The notes below the pieces were generated by a model. The model was not told the origin of the DNA. It was given only the letters and a program-made list of their open reading frames with translations, and made no database searches. Below are positions 1,505-39,068 of a stretch of 42,454 bases of DNA, piece after piece (position 1 is the stretch's first letter; each line of letters opens with the position of its first letter). The stretch covers positions 1 to 42,454 of the forward strand of contig DASUHM010000064.1 in NCBI GenBank assembly GCA_036273515.1. The letters are read 5' to 3'. The position numbers and the translations under genes are program-made. This stretch comes from Gaiellales bacterium. Its GTDB lineage: Bacteria; Actinomycetota; Thermoleophilia; Gaiellales; JAICJC01.

Positions 1505-3754
1505 ATGGTCTTGAGAATCTCCGTGACCGCGCTCATGGCAGCCGCTGCGCTGACCGTCGGCGGGGCTACCGCCGTCGGCGCGACGCCGCACAAGAGCCAT
1601 GCGCGGTCCGCACCCGCCGCCGCGCCGGCCGCGGCGACGCCGGTCGCCGACACGACCCTTTCGCCGCTGGCGGTGCCCGGCGGGCTGGGCGCGATGCCCT
1701 GCGCAGGCGGGTCGAGTCCGATCAAGCACGTGATCTACCTGCAGTTCGACAACACGCACCTGCGCCGCGACCGGGCGGGCGTGCAGTCCGATCTCGAGCA
1801 GATGCCGCACCTGCTGAACTTCCTGCGCGGGAACGGCACGCTGCTCGCGAACGACCACACGCAGCTCATCTCGCACACGGCCAACGGCATCCTGACCTCG
1901 CTGACGGGCGTCTATCCCGACCGCCACGGTCAGGCCGTCGCCAACAGCTTCAGGTACTTCCACCCCGACGGCACCACGGGCACGGGCGTCTCGTTCGCGT
2001 ACTGGACGGACGGGATCTTCGACCCCACCACCTCGACGCCCTCGGACACCGCACCGAACATGATCACCGACACGGGCAAGCAGGCCCCGGCGCCGTGGGT
2101 GCCGTACACGCGGGCGGGCTGCGACTTCGGCGCGACCGGCCTCGCCAACGTCGAGCTCGAGAACACGGGCCCGGACGTGCCGAAGGTCTTCGGCCCCAAC
2201 TCTCCCGAGGCCCAGGAGGCCGCGGCCGATCCCGCCAAGGCGGCAGCCGACTTCGTCGGCATCGCCGTCCACTGCGCGCAGGGCTCGGCGGTCTGCACCA
2301 ACTCGCCCAACGCGCGGCCCGACCTCCTGCCGGACGAGCCCGGCGGCTACACCGGCTTCGACGGCCTCTTCGGCAACAAGTACGTCGCGCCGGTGATCAG
2401 CCCGAACGGGCCGATGCAGACGCTGAGCGGGAAGACGATCGAGGACACCAACGGCAACGTCGGCTTCCCCGGCTTCGACGGGATGACGCCGGACGTCTCG
2501 CTGGCGTACGTCGCGGCGATGCAGGAGCACGGCATCCCGATCACCTACGCGTACCTGTCCGACGCGCACGACAACCATTCGACCGGCGTCGACACGGGCC
2601 CGTTCGGCCCGGGCGAGGCCGGCTACGTGAACCAGCTCCACGACTACGACCAGGCGTTCGCGCGCTTCTTCGCCCGCCTCCAGGCAGACGGCATCGACCG
2701 CTCGAACACGCTGTTCGTGGTCACCGTCGAGGAGGGCGACCACTTCGCCGGCGGCCCGCCGTCGAACCCCTCGTGCGACGGCGTCACAACGCCGTGCCAG
2801 TACTCGCACGTGACCTGCCCGAGCGCAACGATGGCGACCTGCCCGGAGAACGCGGTCGGCGAGGTGAACGTGAACCTGCGCGGCCTGCTGGCCACGCAGC
2901 GCAACGACACGACGCCGTTCGACGTCCATAGCGACATGGCGCCGGCCTTCTACCTGACCGGCGACCCGGCCCGCGACGCGGCGGTCACCCGCACGTTCGA
3001 GCACGACGTGGCGGCGCTCAAGGCGGCCAACCCGTACGTCGGCCACGACGTCGCGGTCAGCCGGCAGATGATCGACCCGGTCGGGATGCGCCTGCTGCAC
3101 ATGGTGACCGGCGATCCGCTGCGCACGCCGACGTTCATCAGCTTCCTCGACCCGGACATGTTCGGCTACGCCGGCGGGACGACCTGCACGGCCGCGAGCC
3201 CCTGCTCGCAGGTCCAGCCCGGGTTTGCCTGGAACCACGGCGGCCTCGTGCCCGAGGTCGCGAACACGTGGATCGGGATGGTCGGGCCGGGCGTCCGCCA
3301 CCTCGGTGAGACGCACCGGCCGTGGACCGACCACACCGACCTGCGGCCGACGATGCTCGCGCTGACCGGCCTGCAGGACGACTACGGCCACGACGGCCGG
3401 GCGATCATCCCGGTGCTGACCAAGGGAGCCCTGCCCGCCGGCCTGCGCACCCACACGGCCCTGGCCGCGCGGCTCGGTGCCGTCCTCAAGCAGATCGACG
3501 CGCCGTTCGGCGTCGTCGGCCGGAACGGCATCGCGGCCTCGACGACGGCGATGGAGGGCTCGGACGCGGTCTACGCCCGCATCGAGGCCCGCATCGCCGC
3601 ACTGACCGTGCGCCGAAACGCGCTGGCCGACAAGATCGCGCCGGCGCTCGACGCCGCCACGTTCAACGGCGACCCGGTCGGCGCGGCCCAGGCCCGGGCC
3701 TGGATCGCCCGGGCGGAGGCGATCATCCGCGCCTCCCACCGGCTGGCGCGGTAG
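1505..3754 (+). CDS. Secreted alkaline-phosphatase-superfamily protein
   Basis: About 749 residues. ATG 1505 is preferred over TTG 1490 because GGGGGTGGGC lies just upstream. The N-terminus is a signal peptide (basic start, then an Ala/Val-rich core to about residue 28), followed by an Ala/Pro-rich linker. The body has the layout of metal-dependent alkaline-phosphatase/phosphodiesterase-fold enzymes: HVIYLQFDNTH as the first metal-ligand strand, SHTANGILTSLTG in the nucleophile region, VTVEEGDHF as a metal-binding Asp-His pair, WNHGG, and a late DHTDLRPTMLALTG. The last hundred residues are helical and Ala/Arg-rich. It probably hydrolyses a phosphoester outside the cell; the substrate cannot be told. 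It appears monocistronic and is followed at once by a strong palindrome. Confidence 0.75.
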   Translation: MVLRISVTALMAAAALTVGGATAVGATPHKSHARSAPAAAPAAATPVADTTLSPLAVPGGLGAMPCAGGSSPIKHVIYLQFDNTHLRRDRAGVQSDLEQMPHLLNFLRGNGTLLANDHTQLISHTANGILTSLTGVYPDRHGQAVANSFRYFHPDGTTGTGVSFAYWTDGIFDPTTSTPSDTAPNMITDTGKQAPAPWVPYTRAGCDFGATGLANVELENTGPDVPKVFGPNSPEAQEAAADPAKAAADFVGIAVHCAQGSAVCTNSPNARPDLLPDEPGGYTGFDGLFGNKYVAPVISPNGPMQTLSGKTIEDTNGNVGFPGFDGMTPDVSLAYVAAMQEHGIPITYAYLSDAHDNHSTGVDTGPFGPGEAGYVNQLHDYDQAFARFFARLQADGIDRSNTLFVVTVEEGDHFAGGPPSNPSCDGVTTPCQYSHVTCPSATMATCPENAVGEVNVNLRGLLATQRNDTTPFDVHSDMAPAFYLTGDPARDAAVTRTFEHDVAALKAANPYVGHDVAVSRQMIDPVGMRLLHMVTGDPLRTPTFISFLDPDMFGYAGGTTCTAASPCSQVQPGFAWNHGGLVPEVANTWIGMVGPGVRHLGETHRPWTDHTDLRPTMLALTGLQDDYGHDGRAIIPVLTKGALPAGLRTHTALAARLGAVLKQIDAPFGVVGRNGIAASTTAMEGSDAVYARIEARIAALTVRRNALADKIAPALDAATFNGDPVGAAQARAWIARAEAIIRASHRLAR

Positions 3755-3761
3755 CGGTCCC

Positions 3762-3796
3762 GGTGCCTGGCACCGCCTCGCGCGGTGCCAGGCACC
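3762..3796. repeat. Perfect 14-bp palindromic repeat (GGTGCCTGGCACC type)
   Basis: GGTGCCTGGCACCG (3762-3775) and CGGTGCCAGGCACC (3783-3796) form a perfect 14-bp inverted repeat around CCTCGCG. Each arm itself contains the near-palindrome GGTGCCTGGCACC, so the unit is a palindrome of palindromes, as in REP/BIME-type extragenic elements. It lies 7 bp after the stop of the secreted enzyme and could also act as a terminator. Confidence 0.65.
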
Positions 3797-3823
3797 CTGA
3801 CGCTCGGGGTACGATCGCAGCGC

Positions 3824-4312
3824 GTGCATTTGGCCATGCGACCCGCACCGGTTGTCGTCGTCCTGAGCGCGATCGCGGCGGTGATGGCCGCCTCGGCCGC
3901 CTATCACGCCGCGCTCGCGCTCGGCCTGACCGAGTACTCCGCCCGGGGCGAGCCTCCGCCAGGAAACGGCCTCGTCCCGGCCGGGCTCGTGGCGATCTGG
4001 CTTGCGGCAGCGGTTCTCGTGGGCGCCGCTGTCGGGAATGCGCGGATCGGCGGCTGGCCGGCGATCGCCGTCCTGACCGCGCTCGCGGTCACGATGGCGG
4101 CGGCTCGCTACTACTCGCCCGACACGTACTACCTGAACACCAACGACCGTATCGCCGACCACTACCCGGGAGGCCGCATCGCGGTGCTGGTCGTCCTGGC
4201 CGCCGTTGCGACCGCGATCGCCCGGAGCCGACCGCGCGTCGGCGCGCCGATCGCCGCCGCGGTCATGGTGCTCTGCGCCGCCACCCTCGCGGACGAGGGC
4301 TACAACAACTAG
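3824..4312 (+). CDS. Small multi-pass membrane protein, unknown function
   Basis: The start is GTG 3824 (162 residues) or ATG 3836 (158 residues); a TACGAT box at 3810-3815 fits a near-leaderless start at GTG. Four to five hydrophobic segments are visible: VVVVLSAIAAVMAASAAYHA, a Val/Ala-rich stretch after GNGLVPAG, AIAVLTALAVTMAAA, IAVLVVLAAVATAIA and IAAAVMVLCAATLA. A polar loop (YSPDTYYLNTNDRIADHYPG) lies between the third and fourth. The family is not recognised. The gene sits alone between two unrelated palindromic repeats. Confidence 0.6.
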   Translation: MHLAMRPAPVVVVLSAIAAVMAASAAYHAALALGLTEYSARGEPPPGNGLVPAGLVAIWLAAAVLVGAAVGNARIGGWPAIAVLTALAVTMAAARYYSPDTYYLNTNDRIADHYPGGRIAVLVVLAAVATAIARSRPRVGAPIAAAVMVLCAATLADEGYNN

Positions 4313-4399
4313 CTGATCGGGGTCAGGCTGATCGGGGTCAGACCCCGAACGGAAGTGCAACAAAACTGCAACGGCGACCGTTCGGGGTCTGACCCCGAT
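4313..4399. repeat. Inverted-repeat element with GGGGTCAGACCCC cores
   Basis: A 22-bp arm (4331-4352) has a perfect inverted partner at 4378-4399. Both contain the palindromic core CGGGGTCAGACCCCG. Between them lies a 25-nt AT-richer spacer with a TGCAAC direct repeat. A tandem partial copy of the left end (CTGATCGGGGTCAG at 4313 and again at 4328) suggests slippage or repeated insertion. GGGGTC(A/T)GACCCC palindromes of this kind occur as REP-like elements in many genomes and are often linked to RAYT (TnpA-REP) transposases. No such transposase is in this window. Confidence 0.7.
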
Positions 4400-4401
4400 T
4401 G

Positions 4402-4680
4402 TCAGCCCGGGATCGCGCCCTCGCCGGCGAAGGCCTCGCGGGCCTCTTGCAGCGTGGTGTCGGCGTGCGGGAGCACGTGGTCGGACGTGACCAGCTGGTC
4501 GTCCGGCACCGGCTTGCCCTCGCCCTCGACCATCCCGATCAGCTCGCCGAACGCCCGGCTGAACCCGCTCGCGTCGCCGGCGGCGACCGCCGCCGCGACG
4601 GCGTTGTCGAGCTCGTTCAGGCGGCCGAGCAGGGCGTCGTCCAGTTCGAACTGGCCCCTGCCCAGGATGCGCACGATCAT
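4402..4680 (-). CDS. pspAA: PspA-associated protein PspAA
   Basis: A 92-residue acidic protein starting MIVRILGRGQFELDD and ending with ADTTLQEAREAF. It matches the small partner found next to PspA in actinobacteria, with the typical pattern of a short beta-strand start, a helical middle (LNELDNAVAAAV) and PDDQL...SDHVLP. Its ATG overlaps the pspA stop by 4 nt (ATGA), so the two are translationally coupled. It probably helps PspA sense or respond to membrane stress. The gene is complete and ends just before the inverted-repeat element. Confidence 0.85.
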   Translation of the reverse strand: MIVRILGRGQFELDDALLGRLNELDNAVAAAVAAGDASGFSRAFGELIGMVEGEGKPVPDDQLVTSDHVLPHADTTLQEAREAFAGEGAIPG

Positions 4681-33344: not shown

Positions 33345-35213
33345 CTACCCGGTGCGGTGCAGCGCGTCGTACACGCCGCGGCCGACCTTCGCCGGCAAGC
33401 CCGGGACGGCCTCGAGCTCGTCGCGGGTCGCGTTCACGAGGGCGTCGGCCGTGGTGAACCGCTGCATCAGCAGGCGCCGCCGGGCCGGGCCGACGCCCGG
33501 CAGGCTGTCGAAGATCGAGTCGATGCTCGAGCGGCTGCGGCGCTGGCGGTGGAAGCCGAGCGCGAAGCGGTGCGCCTCGTCACGCAGTCGCTGCAGCAGC
33601 TGGAGTCCGGCCGAGGCCCGGTCGAGCACGATCGGCGCCGAGCGGCCGGGAATGAAGACCTCCTCCTCGCGCTTCGCCAGCGAGATGACGGCGACGCGCG
33701 GGAGCTCGAAGCCGGCCATGGCCTCGACGGCCGCGCTCAGCTGGCCCTTGCCGCCGTCGATCACGACCAGGTTCGGGGCGGTGGCGAAGCTGCGATCATA
33801 GTCGTCGGCCTCGACCGACGTCATCCGCGCGAACCGGCGGCCGACCGCCTCGGCGATCATCGCGAAGTCGTCCTGGCCGCCGCTGTGGCGGATCCCGAAC
33901 TTGCGGTAGTCCGACTTCTTGGCGACGGCGTCCTCGAAGACGACCATCGACGCGACCGGGTCGCTCGTGCCCAGGTTGGAGATGTCGAAGCACTCCATCC
34001 GCACCGGCAGGACCTCGAGGTTGAGGCCCTCGCGGAGCTCCTCGAGCGCCTCGATCCGGCGTGCCCGCGTGCGCTCGCGCATGAGCGTGTCGTGCTCGAG
34101 GGCCAGGTCGGCGTTGCGCGCGGCCATGTCGGCCAGCCGTCGCTTCTCGCCGCGCTGGGCCGAGCGCACCTCGACGCTCGCCCCACGCCGCTCGCCCAGG
34201 AACGTCTCCAGGAGGTCGGGATCCTCGAACCCCTTCGGCACGACCACCTGGCCCGGGATCGCAACCTGGCCGCCGTAGTACTCGAGCGCGAACCCCCACA
34301 GCACGTCCGACGGGCTGCTCTCGGCGACGTTCTCGAGGTAGAAGCCGTGGCGGTCGGACAGCCTGCCGTCGCGCAGGTGGAAGAGCTGGACGTTGGCGGT
34401 GTCGCCGCTGCAGGCGATGCCGAGGATGTCGGCGGAGCCGAGGCTGCGGCGGTCGGCGACCTGGCGCTCGGACAGATGGCGCACCGCCATCAGCCGGTTG
34501 CGGTAGCGGGCCGCGTCCTCGAACTCATGCTCCTTGGCAGCGCGCTTCATCTCGGTCTCGAGCCGCCGCTCCAGCGGCCGCACCCGGCCGGAGAGGAACT
34601 CGACCACGCTGTCGATCACCGCCCGGTAGTCGTCCGGGCCGATGTAGCCGACGCACGGGGCCGCGCAGCGGCCGATGTGGTAGTCGAGGCAGGGCACGCC
34701 CGAGCGGCGGCCCGGCTGCGGCCCCTCGCACGGCCGGTACGGGAAGACGCGGTTCAGCACGTCGAGCGTCTCGCGCACCTTCTTCGCGCTCGCGTACGGC
34801 CCGAAGTAGAGGACGCCCTTGCGATGCCGCTCGCGCGTGAACATCACGCGCGGGTATTCGTCGCCCACCGTGACCGCGATGTACGGGTACGACTTGTCGT
34901 CGCGCAGGCGGATGTTGAAGGCCGGCCGGTGGCGCTTGATCAGGTTCTGCTCGAGCAGGAGCGCCTCGGTCTCGGACGCGGCCGCGACGAACTCGATCTC
35001 GTCGATCCGCTCCACCAGCCCCGCGGTCTTCACCGTCGCGTGCAGATCACGGCGGAAGTACGAGGTGACCCGCTTCCGCAGCGACTTGGCCTTGCCGACG
35101 TAGATGACGTCGCCGTCCTCGCTCCGGAACATGTACACCCCGGGCTGGTCGGGGAGGGCGCGGAGCTGGGCGTCGAGGCGCTGGGAGCGCTCGCTGCGGG
35201 CGACGGCGGACAT
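33345..35213 (-). CDS. uvrC: Excinuclease ABC subunit C (UvrC)
   Basis: About 622 residues making both incisions in nucleotide excision repair. In order: GIY-YIG domain (PGVYMFRSEDGDVIYVGKAK), YFGPYASAKKVRETL, the Cys cluster (PCLDYHIGRCAAPCVGYI), UVR helix pair (AAKEHEFEDAARYRNRL), the RNase-H-like C-terminal nuclease (MECFDISNLG, VVIDGGKGQL) and a tandem HhH domain (SLPGVGPARRRLL). ATG 35213 is preferred over 35222 because TACGAT lies 7 nt upstream, while ATG 35222 overlaps that box. Complete. Confidence 0.97.
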   Translation of the reverse strand: MSAVARSERSQRLDAQLRALPDQPGVYMFRSEDGDVIYVGKAKSLRKRVTSYFRRDLHATVKTAGLVERIDEIEFVAAASETEALLLEQNLIKRHRPAFNIRLRDDKSYPYIAVTVGDEYPRVMFTRERHRKGVLYFGPYASAKKVRETLDVLNRVFPYRPCEGPQPGRRSGVPCLDYHIGRCAAPCVGYIGPDDYRAVIDSVVEFLSGRVRPLERRLETEMKRAAKEHEFEDAARYRNRLMAVRHLSERQVADRRSLGSADILGIACSGDTANVQLFHLRDGRLSDRHGFYLENVAESSPSDVLWGFALEYYGGQVAIPGQVVVPKGFEDPDLLETFLGERRGASVEVRSAQRGEKRRLADMAARNADLALEHDTLMRERTRARRIEALEELREGLNLEVLPVRMECFDISNLGTSDPVASMVVFEDAVAKKSDYRKFGIRHSGGQDDFAMIAEAVGRRFARMTSVEADDYDRSFATAPNLVVIDGGKGQLSAAVEAMAGFELPRVAVISLAKREEEVFIPGRSAPIVLDRASAGLQLLQRLRDEAHRFALGFHRQRRSRSSIDSIFDSLPGVGPARRRLLMQRFTTADALVNATRDELEAVPGLPAKVGRGVYDALHRTG

Positions 35214-35265
35214 CCCGACCATCGTAGCCTCGAGCCGCTTGCAGCCCTGCCAAGATCACCGCGAC

Positions 35266-35840: not shown

Positions 35841-37595
35841 CTAGAACGGGTTCAAGGCATCCGCGAGCGAGCGGCCGGCGTCCGCGACGGCACCGGCCGC
35901 CCGCGCCGCGCCCGCCGCCAGCCAGTGCCGCTCGCGGTAGACACACGCCGCGGCGAGGATCGTGACGCCCGCGAGCATGAGGGCCGCGCCGACCGGCGGC
36001 ACCTCCGCAGACCCGGCGCCGAGCATGATGAGATCGGTCCCGGCGGTCATCGCCCCGGCCGCGGTGAGCGCGCTGCTGGCGGCCTGGGCGCCGTACCAGA
36101 TCCGGTCGTCGCGCCGCCGGGCGGTCCAGGCCTGGTAGGCGAAGAGCGCGCTGAACCCGATCCCGAGCGGCGTCGTCAGCCGGGTCGCCCACAATGACGG
36201 GCCGGCCAGCTCGACGCCGCCCCGGGTCATCGCGAGGCCGCTCTCCACTCCGTCCCAGGTCGCACCGGCGAGCGTCGAGAGGTCGCGCAGATGCGGGTTC
36301 GGCACGAACGTGGCCGCGGCCGTCAGGCCGAACCGCGTCAGGTTCTTGAACCCGGCCGCCGCCTGGAGAGACAGCCGGCTGCCGAGATGGTCGCTCTGCT
36401 CCACCCCGCGCTCGACCGCCTTCTCGCCGGTCTCGAGCACGCTCGTCGACTCCGGCCCGTCCGCGTCGGCCGGCGGAGCCGCCGTCGCGGCGGCCGCGCG
36501 AACGGCCGCCGCGGCCAGCGGAAGCAGGCGCACGACGCCGGAGAAGCCGTGCAGCCCGGCGCCCGACGCCGATCGCAGCACGAGCGCCGCCGCGGAGCGA
36601 TCGCCGAGGGCCTCCCCCAGCGCGGCCGCGAGATCGCCCGGATGCGTCCGCATCGCGGCCGCGAGCGCGGTCGCCGCCGTGTCGGGATCGGTCGCGAGCC
36701 CGAGGCGCATCTCGGCGGCCAGCGCGTGTGTCGGCACCTGGTGGGCGCGGGCGGCGGCCTCGACCGCGGGTTCGCCCTCGGCGGCGACCGGTGCGCCGGC
36801 GAGGAGCCGGCCGAACCCGTCCCAGCCGCCGGCCGCCAACGGCTCGAAGCGCACGTCTGCGCCGGTGTGCGGCGCGACCACCATCATCCCGCCGCCGACG
36901 TACATGCCGACGTGGTGCGGCGCGCCGGAGGCGGTACCGACGAACGCGAGGTCGCCGGGCAGGAGCTCGCCGGCCGTGACCGGACGGGCGTCGTGCCACA
37001 GGTCGGCGGCCGTCGGCCGGCCCGGCAGCGGATCGCCGGCAGCGGCATAGGCGTAGTCGACCAGGCCGGAGCAGTCGAAGCCGCCCTCCGCTCGGCTCTC
37101 GCCGCCCCAGACGTACGGCCAGCCCACCTGGGCCTCGGCCGCTGCCACGGCCGCGAACGGGCCGCGACCGCCGTGCAGGTCGACGGGCCGGAAGGAATCG
37201 GCCGGGAGCGATGCCGAATAGGCGACACCGGCACGCGCGCGGGCGTCCACTGGCTGCGACTGCCGGCCGGCGACGGGGACCGTCCCGTCGACCGGGAGCG
37301 CCACGGCGACGTCCACCGCGCGCGGCACCGGCCCGTCGCGGACGAGATCGAAGGACACCAGCCGGGCGCCGTTCCGGCGGGCGGCGTCGGCGGCGAGCTC
37401 GCGCAGAGCGGCGGGCGTCGCGTCGGGGTCGGCCGCGAGACGCGTCGCCGCGGCGACGGCGGCGAGGTCGGCCGCGCGCTGCGCGTGTCCGCCGCCTGCG
37501 GCCACCATGCTCAGGTAGCCGAGCAGCACCGCCCCGAGCAGGACGACGGCGATCGCCCCGACGGCCGCGACCGAGATCTGGCCCCGCTCGCTCAC
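35841..37595 (-). CDS. TadG-like membrane anchor fused to an NlpC/P60 peptidase
   Basis: A 584-residue protein. Residues 1-50 (SERGQISVAAVGAIAVVLLG, then HAQRAADLAAVAAATRLA) are the N-terminal module of TadE/TadG pseudopilin-like proteins. At about 140-250 lies an NlpC/P60 domain: GWPYVWGGESRAEGGFDCSGLVDYAYAAAG (split here over the catalytic Cys in DCSG) and the catalytic His in HHVGMYVGGG. The C-terminal 300 residues are Ala-rich and end with three hydrophobic segments (GIGFSALFAYQAW, ALTAAGAMTAGTDLIML, GAALMLAGVTILAAACV). GTG 37595 overlaps the previous gene by 4 nt. It probably cuts cell-wall peptides outside the membrane; the fusion is unusual. Confidence 0.8.
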   Translation of the reverse strand: MSERGQISVAAVGAIAVVLLGAVLLGYLSMVAAGGGHAQRAADLAAVAAATRLAADPDATPAALRELAADAARRNGARLVSFDLVRDGPVPRAVDVAVALPVDGTVPVAGRQSQPVDARARAGVAYSASLPADSFRPVDLHGGRGPFAAVAAAEAQVGWPYVWGGESRAEGGFDCSGLVDYAYAAAGDPLPGRPTAADLWHDARPVTAGELLPGDLAFVGTASGAPHHVGMYVGGGMMVVAPHTGADVRFEPLAAGGWDGFGRLLAGAPVAAEGEPAVEAAARAHQVPTHALAAEMRLGLATDPDTAATALAAAMRTHPGDLAAALGEALGDRSAAALVLRSASGAGLHGFSGVVRLLPLAAAAVRAAAATAAPPADADGPESTSVLETGEKAVERGVEQSDHLGSRLSLQAAAGFKNLTRFGLTAAATFVPNPHLRDLSTLAGATWDGVESGLAMTRGGVELAGPSLWATRLTTPLGIGFSALFAYQAWTARRRDDRIWYGAQAASSALTAAGAMTAGTDLIMLGAGSAEVPPVGAALMLAGVTILAAACVYRERHWLAAGAARAAGAVADAGRSLADALNPF

Positions 37596-37882
37596 GGGAG
37601 CGCCGCCCGGGCCACGGCGCTCGTGTGGGCAAGCCCGCCGGCGAGGCGCACCGGCACGGTGACCACGAGCGTGTGCGCCTGCACCCGGATCGTGGCGCCG
37701 CGACGCAGGTCGGCCGGCACGGGCCGGCCCTCGGCGACCACGACGGCGGCCTGGTCGGCGATCCCCTGGGCGCGGCCCTGCGCCGCCCACGCGACGAGCA
37801 CCGCCTGGATCCCGACCGCGACGATCGCCGCCAGACCAGCGCAGACGACCAGCTCGATCGTCGCCTGCCCGCGCTCGCTCAC
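37592..37882 (-). CDS. TadE-like pseudopilin protein
   Basis: A 96-residue protein whose start SERGQATIELVVCAGLAAIVAVG has the class III prepilin pattern: a short basic leader, Glu at position 5 after the presumed cut, and one TM helix. The rest is a small beta-rich external domain (RGATIRVQAHTLVVTVPVRL). GTG 37882 and the stop each overlap neighbours by 4 nt. The longer upstream frame is antisense-like and not supported. Confidence 0.75.
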   Translation of the reverse strand: MSERGQATIELVVCAGLAAIVAVGIQAVLVAWAAQGRAQGIADQAAVVVAEGRPVPADLRRGATIRVQAHTLVVTVPVRLAGGLAHTSAVARAALP

Positions 37883-38214
37883 GAGCGCACCTCGGCCGCC
37901 GAAGCCGACAGATCGGCGTCGAACCCGGGCAGCACGGCCGGGATGCGCACGCGCACCGTGACCGTGCCGCCGGTCTCGTCGATCCGCGCGCCCCGCCGCA
38001 TCGACTCTGGCAGCGCCGCCAGCGCGGCGGGCCGGGTCGGCGATCCGGCCAGCGCGGCCCGGGCCGCCGCCCGCGCGGCGCTCTCGGCCGACACGAGCGT
38101 CCACCCGGCCAGCGCCGCCTGCCACACCGCGAAGGTGACGGCGACCAGCACCGGCAGCAGGACGACGGTCTCGATGCTGGCCTGGCCACGCTCCGTGTCG
38201 GAGGCTCGTTCCAC
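37879..38214 (-). CDS. TadE/TadF-like pseudopilin protein
   Basis: A 111-residue protein with DTERGQASIETVVLLPVLVAV as N-terminal pseudopilin segment and LVSAESAARAAARAALAG as following helix, then an external beta part ending VRIPAVLPGFDADLSAS. It is first in the three-gene operon. TACCTT lies 7 nt before GTG 38214 (leaderless). No tad ATPase, platform or flp pilin genes are in the window. Confidence 0.75.
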   Translation of the reverse strand: MERASDTERGQASIETVVLLPVLVAVTFAVWQAALAGWTLVSAESAARAAARAALAGSPTRPAALAALPESMRRGARIDETGGTVTVRVRIPAVLPGFDADLSASAAEVRS

Positions 38215-38303: not shown

Positions 38304-39068
38304 ATGAGCGACGACGGCAGCACCGAGAACGGCGGGACGCCGAACAACTCCGCCGGCGAGGACCGCCAGTTCGTCCACTTCTCGTTCTACCAGCTCGACC
38401 CCGCCTGGCGCCGCCTCCCGGAGGCCGAGCAGGAGTCCTCGCGGGCCGAGCTGGCGGCAACGATCGAGTCGTTCGGCGAGCGCTTCGCCCTTCGCTCCTA
38501 CACGATCGCCGGTCTGCGCCCGGATGCCGACTTCATGCTCTGGAAGGTCTCGGAGCGGCTGGAGGACTTCCAGGAGATCGGCACGGCCATCATGTCGACC
38601 GCGATGGGCTCGTACCTCGTGACCCCGTATGCGTACCTGTCGATGACGCGGCGGTCGCAGTACGTGAAGGGCGAGGGCCGCTCGATGCACAAGCGCGGCC
38701 GGATCATGTGGAACCCCGACTCGCGCTACCTGCTCATCTACCCCATGGTGAAGACGCGCGCCTGGTACCAGCTGTCCAAGCCGGCCCGGCAGGGGATCAT
38801 GAACGAGCACATCGCCACCGGCCACCAGTTCCCGACGGTGAAGATCAACACGACGTACTCGTACGGGATCGACGACCAGGAGTTCGTGGTCGCGTTCGAG
38901 ACGGACTACGTCGGCGACTTCCTCGACCTGATGATGCGCCTGCGCGAGACCGAGGCCAGCCGCTACACCGAGCGCGACACGCCGATCTTCACGTGCATCT
39001 CGTGCTCGGTGCCCGAGGCGCTGCGCTCGCTCGGCGGCGCGGCGCACGCGCTGCTCGCCACGGACTGA
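38304..39068 (+). CDS. hemQ: Coproheme decarboxylase / HemQ (chlorite-dismutase family)
   Basis: A 254-residue protein that makes haem b from coproheme in Gram-positive bacteria. FVHFSFYQLDPAWRRL, DADFMLWKVSERLEDFQ, the SYLVTPYAYLSMTRRSQY region, YPMVKTRAWYQL, and MNEHIATGHQFPTVKINTTYSYGIDDQEFVVAFE match the family, with His in NEHIATGH a likely proximal ligand. GAGG before ATG 38304 serves as ribosome-binding site. It is divergent from the Tad-like operon. Confidence 0.92.
   Translation: MSDDGSTENGGTPNNSAGEDRQFVHFSFYQLDPAWRRLPEAEQESSRAELAATIESFGERFALRSYTIAGLRPDADFMLWKVSERLEDFQEIGTAIMSTAMGSYLVTPYAYLSMTRRSQYVKGEGRSMHKRGRIMWNPDSRYLLIYPMVKTRAWYQLSKPARQGIMNEHIATGHQFPTVKINTTYSYGIDDQEFVVAFETDYVGDFLDLMMRLRETEASRYTERDTPIFTCISCSVPEALRSLGGAAHALLATD

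Follow-up and report, generated by a model that had tools for sequence, protein, structure and literature searches.

An NlpC/P60-bearing TadE-TadF-TadG-type operon of a Gaiellales bacterium as a candidate wall-opening complex of a Tad pilus

What is the task of three pilin-like genes that end in a cell wall peptidase domain and lie apart from any pilus machinery? The question is raised by an operon of a Gaiellales bacterium, located on contig C64 of its draft genome (4.07 Mb); this contig, analysed over its whole length of 42,454 nucleotides, is referred to as the window. Three minus-strand ORFs follow each other with successive 4-nt overlaps of the GTGA type: ORF1 (38214-37879, 111 aa), ORF2 (37882-37592, 96 aa) and ORF3 (P0003; 37595-35841, 584 aa). 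All three start with an ERGQ segment that runs into a hydrophobic helix, a motif absent from every other gene among the 43 called in the window. Genes for a tad ATPase, a platform protein, an A24 prepilin peptidase or an Flp pilin were not present in the window. Thus, the original prediction for this DNA was correct in describing three overlapping genes, each with a pseudopilin start, and no tad core, peptidase or flp gene nearby. The wider locus consists of housekeeping genes. Conserved neighbours outside the system are uvrC (33345..35222, minus strand) and, in divergent orientation, a gene assigned as HemQ-like (38304..39068, plus strand); both occupy the same place in all five genomes of the bacterial family (f1). 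Scans for promoters, terminators and RNA families revealed nothing for the operon.

The two small proteins are assigned as minor pilins on different lines of evidence. ORF1 matched the Pfam family TadE with 35 bits (cutoff 22.9) and, under the cutoff, the NCBIfam model for Rv3655c-type TadE with 28 bits. A class III signal, defined by Gly, Glu at position +5 and a hydrophobic helix, was present in ORF1 (ERG/QASIE) and ORF2 (ERG/QATIE). ORF2 stayed under every family profile cutoff; its assignment as a second, TadE/F-type minor pilin is backed by its position, the 4-nt overlap, the GQATIE motif, the hydrophobic helix and orthologues in 5/5 genomes of the family, a distribution shared by ORF1. 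Substitutions among the orthologues were biased to third codon positions in all three ORFs.

ORF3 combines a TadG-type minor pilin with an NlpC/P60 domain and a long C-terminal region. Its head (residues 1-130; 37206..37595, minus strand) matched TIGR03816, the Rv3654c/TadG model, over residues 3-123 with 36.7 bits, a weak score below the cutoff; the signal segment GQISVA lacks the Glu5 of ORF1 and ORF2, as is usual for TadG. The head was modelled as two helices (3-55 and 61-74) followed by strands (78-125), with pLDDT values of 67-89 over residues 41-100. The AlphaFold model of the full-length protein was poor overall (50.5), so this model could serve a fold search of the P60 domain only. This domain (residues 148-264; 36804..37154, minus strand) reached 70.9 bits against NLPC_P60 over residues 158-258 (cutoff 23) and is the best conserved portion of ORF3, with 73-91% identity among the orthologues. 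The predicted intact Cys-His peptidase stood in part: Cys175 and His228 are invariant in the orthologues (n=5), but the third catalytic position, residue 240, where RipC has an aligned His, is occupied by Val, Ala or Ser, and an invariant His243 follows three residues later. About 320 residues lie C-terminal of the P60 domain. They include a five-helix bundle (residues 275-345; 36561..36773, minus strand; AlphaFold2 pLDDT mostly 89-97), for which Pfam, PDB sequence and fold searches revealed no relative; an identity as lytic transglycosylase was dropped, as none of these searches supported it. A colicin B match over residues 340-546 (17 bits, E 0.017) fell into an Ala-rich region and was discounted as evidence. 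The length of this region agrees with the roughly 300 residues first described; the three transmembrane segments placed there were not borne out: on a 19-residue hydropathy scan, the sole strong hydrophobic segment recurring in 5/5 orthologues lies at about residues 535-553 (feature set at 534-553; 35937..35996, minus strand), and the other helices are weakly hydrophobic.

Within the class, full-length ORF3 is confined to its family. Full-length orthologues of ORF3 were found in 5/5 genomes of f1 and nowhere else among 399 genomes of the class; they scored 896-1002 bits, and the next matches, at most 202 bits, were stand-alone P60 proteins of the same genomes. In all five genomes, the trio is flanked by uvrC and hemQ, and none of them has a tad core in the vicinity. 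Family f3 has P60 genes close to hemQ, which were considered as ancestral versions and turned out to encode ordinary secreted P60 proteins. Other P60 matches from the contig scan (L015-L043) were likewise ordinary, mostly CwlO-like and without a pilin segment. In one relative, G002, a lone Flp pilin gene (L011:3182-3424) adjoins a transketolase gene at a distance of about 6 kb from the trio; the corresponding position falls past the end of the window.

Elsewhere in the genome, three tad cores were present, on contigs C7, C9 and C49. The C7 core comprises Flp, TadE, TadG, CpaB, TadZ, TadA, a vWA-TadB fusion and TadC; the C9 core two Flp pilins, TadE, CpaB, TadZ, TadA, vWA-TadB and TadC, with no clear TadF or TadG. 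The TadB proteins of both carry an N-terminal von Willebrand A domain and have 600-630 aa (C9, L081:13948-15837; C7, L082:15415-17220). The C49 core consists of a response regulator, a histidine kinase, SAF/CpaB, TadZ, TadA, TadB, TadC and a short pilin (MHRGQATIEY...), and none of its genes encodes TadE, TadF or TadG. Between its histidine kinase and the CpaB-like gene lies a gene for a 237-aa protein (L087:7121-7834) with a zinc-ribbon-like CxxC pair at the end and no significant Pfam match. The only A24 prepilin peptidase of the genome is encoded on C43 (51 bits). Since C49 lacks TadE/F/G and the trio lacks a core, each supplies what the other misses, and we infer that the two belong together. 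This pairing is not certain. Genes for TadE-like and TadG-like proteins occur as orphans, with no tad core nearby, at C62:44263, C59:37444 and C97:23605 and could serve any core. The link is made by elimination and by co-occurrence within one clade of five genomes, and is therefore confounded by descent. That the trio locus has no core, while a core without TadE/F/G exists elsewhere, lowers the certainty of the pairing only.

The sister family f2 holds the same type of core. In the TadA tree, C49-type proteins formed one clade (100/100) of five sequences from f1 and ten from f2, distinct from the clades of the C7 and C9 types, which extend over other families. Among the 399 class genomes, C49-type TadA was limited to five of f1 and 13 of f2 (500-575 bits; next match 486). 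The f2 core is syntenic with C49: a DUF192-like gene, response regulator, kinase, SAF, TadZ, TadA, TadB and TadC. In 10/10 f2 loci read (L124-L133), the gene directly after tadC encodes a pilin segment (RGQATVEW...) that continues into a CHAP domain scoring 33-44 bits (cutoff 26), in which Cys, His and Glu/Asn are invariant. The class-wide search found this fusion in 14 f2 genomes and nothing comparable elsewhere in the class; weaker CHAP matches, examined as further fusions, had no pilin segment. Altogether, 17 of the 18 genomes with a C49-type core have a pilin-hydrolase fusion; in the lone exception, G040, the contig ends exactly at the position of the fusion. The f2 tad loci also encode two more pilin-like proteins of about 230-270 aa (L125:776-2228; L132 and L133, ~3700-4630), whose C-terminal parts have no assigned identity.

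When the TadG head plus P60 was used as query across the phylum, proteins with this domain order were found in families f32, f77 and f52. These fusions have about 265-280 aa, end directly after P60, exceed the Pfam cutoffs for Tad (TadG) and NLPC_P60 where scanned, and retain the third catalytic His. Locus L257 has the gene order tadZ-tadA-tadB-tadC-tadV-tadE-tadG(P60). L254, L256, L258 and L260 show the matching locus end, with TadG-P60 beside TadE and a prepilin peptidase; in L255 and L259 the fusion has no visible partner gene. A seeming full-length match in G734 was a coiled-coil P60 protein. In the P60 tree, the domains of the f32/f52/f77 fusions formed one clade (99/99). The window P60 clustered with stand-alone P60 proteins of its own genomes (100/99), apart from the other fusions, and a constraint of all fusions to one clade was rejected (p-AU 5.9e-5). 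Together with the pilin-CHAP fusion, the rejected single origin of the P60 fusions implies that wall hydrolases were attached to Tad pilins at least three times independently. The occurrence of the fusion in standard tad loci, which the original prediction had held to speak against its proposal, was looked for and found in the tadZ-A-B-C-V-E-G loci of these other families. Of that proposal, a pseudopilus-like complex delivering a wall endopeptidase, the TadE/TadG-type pseudopilins apart from the tad core and joined to a wall endopeptidase domain stand; its reading as a structure distinct from a Tad pilus finds no support in view of a C49 core without TadE/F/G, the pilin-CHAP of f2 and the fusions inside standard tad loci.

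Tad pili start from complexes of the TadE/F/G type. We consider it reasonably probable that the trio is a minor-pilin tip complex of this kind, supplying its own pilus with a peptidoglycan hydrolase for the crossing of the wall. The trio would form a TadE-TadF-TadG tip-type complex, with motor and major pilin supplied from C49. The pilins would be cleaved by the single A24 prepilin peptidase and then be seated in the membrane, heads facing outwards. There, the TadG subunit may press the NlpC/P60 endopeptidase onto the peptidoglycan at the start of the pilus; cutting of stem peptides would open or loosen the thick wall and let the filament pass. The C-terminal region with its hydrophobic segment probably tethers the enzyme at the base, so that it would not be exported on the filament; such a segment argues for tethering and against extrusion or a location at the tip. 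The P60 domain of the window is presumably catalytic, with the own wall as its likely substrate and the pilus base as its likely place. Its catalysis is less certain than that of the other fusions because of the altered third catalytic residue, and the C-terminal part of about 320 residues, absent from the other TadG-P60 fusions, counts against the favoured reading. In Myxococcus, TadE/F/G-like trios form the pilus tips, and their genes may lie apart from the core (PMC12075869). Piliation of M. luteus required TadE and TadF, yet neither was found in sheared pili, and a position at the base or spanning the wall has been suggested for them (PMC4322843). To the wider statement, that Tad pili of thick-walled actinomycetes bear their own peptidoglycan-opening enzyme, grafted on a minor pilin in at least three independent lineages (TadG-P60 twice, pilin-CHAP once), we give an even chance.

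The altered catalytic position could also mean that the P60-derived module binds or anchors peptidoglycan with little or no catalysis and fixes the Tad base in the wall. Val, Ala or Ser in 5/5 orthologues would suit this role, TadG has been suggested earlier as pilus anchor (PMC4322843), and an inactive NlpC/P60, RipD, exists as a named NCBIfam family. However, the invariance of Cys175 and His228, the conservation of P60 above all other parts of ORF3 and the full catalytic sets retained by pilin-CHAP and by the remaining TadG-P60 fusions make mere anchoring unlikely. A second alternative directs the enzyme outwards: in contact-dependent killing or feeding, the pilus would present P60 to the walls of neighbouring cells, comparable to the Kil Tad pilus of Myxococcus with its variable tips. 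The trios that form the Kil tips are TadE/F/G-like and have a modular third member, a layout shared by the window trio, and prey peptidoglycan is degraded at the contacts (PMC12075869, PMC8460266). Near the set, however, neither an immunity gene nor FHA proteins nor needleless type III genes were seen, the fusion has been inherited vertically in a stable place next to uvrC and hemQ without evident diversification of the tip, and the hydrophobic C-terminus favours tethering. We regard killing as rather unlikely. The view of the original prediction, a stand-alone pseudopilus or membrane-anchored complex for wall remodelling without pilus motor, agrees with the absence of a tad core from the locus in 5/5 genomes and with its housekeeping surroundings; it is improbable in the light of a C49 core in the same genome that lacks exactly TadE/F/G, of equivalent fusions inside complete tad loci and of the motor required for TadE/F/G assembly in known systems. 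Service to the C7 or C9 core, or to several cores, is the least probable alternative, for although two distant tad loci are needed together in M. luteus (PMC4322843) and C9 lacks a clear TadF and TadG, many f3 and f4 genomes have cores of the C7 and C9 types and no TadG-P60 fusion.

The preferred reading, a Tad minor-pilin complex with its own wall hydrolase, can be set against known systems. The trio resembles TadE/TadF/TadG of Tad (type IVc) systems, including the mycobacterial Rv3655c/Rv3654c, in gene order, class III signals and TadE/TadG homology; it differs in its detachment from the core and in a TadG that bears NlpC/P60 and a C-terminal region of 320 residues. With RipA, RipC, CwlO and LytE it shares the NlpC/P60 family and the Cys and His. 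Those enzymes are secreted, have coiled-coil or LysM parts and possess the full catalytic triad. The TadG-P60 proteins of f32, f52 and f77 have the same succession of head and P60 and adjoin TadE and a prepilin peptidase; unlike the window fusion, they reside in standard tad loci, end after P60 and derive from a separate P60 origin. KilL/KilM/KilN of Myxococcus (PMC12075869) are likewise three minor pilins with a large modular third one, in clusters that may lie off the core, but the KilN module has no known relative, whereas the window trio carries a wall-peptidase domain and belongs to an actinomycete. In the modular pilins PilB and PilC of S. sanguinis (PMC8179133), too, a functional module is grafted on a pilin; these are ligand binders, and the sections considered of that article, whose survey relied on the T4a pilin motif, mention S74 and M26 peptidases and no peptidoglycan hydrolase. 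Full-text searches of open-licence papers revealed none that names such a fusion. Tad minor pilins and modular pilins were thus known before, and the grafting of a wall hydrolase is new within the open-licence literature as far as it could be searched. A structural paper of 2025 stated that neither a peptidoglycan hydrolase nor a lytic transglycosylase had been described in connection with a Tad pilus (PMC12307814), and the passage of type IV and Tad pili through the thick monoderm wall is listed as an open question (PMC6916266). The recurrent fusions suggest how Tad filaments may get past a thick wall: with two hydrolase families, P60 and CHAP, they offer concrete candidates for the crossing and pose a testable question, whether piliation depends on the catalytic cysteine.
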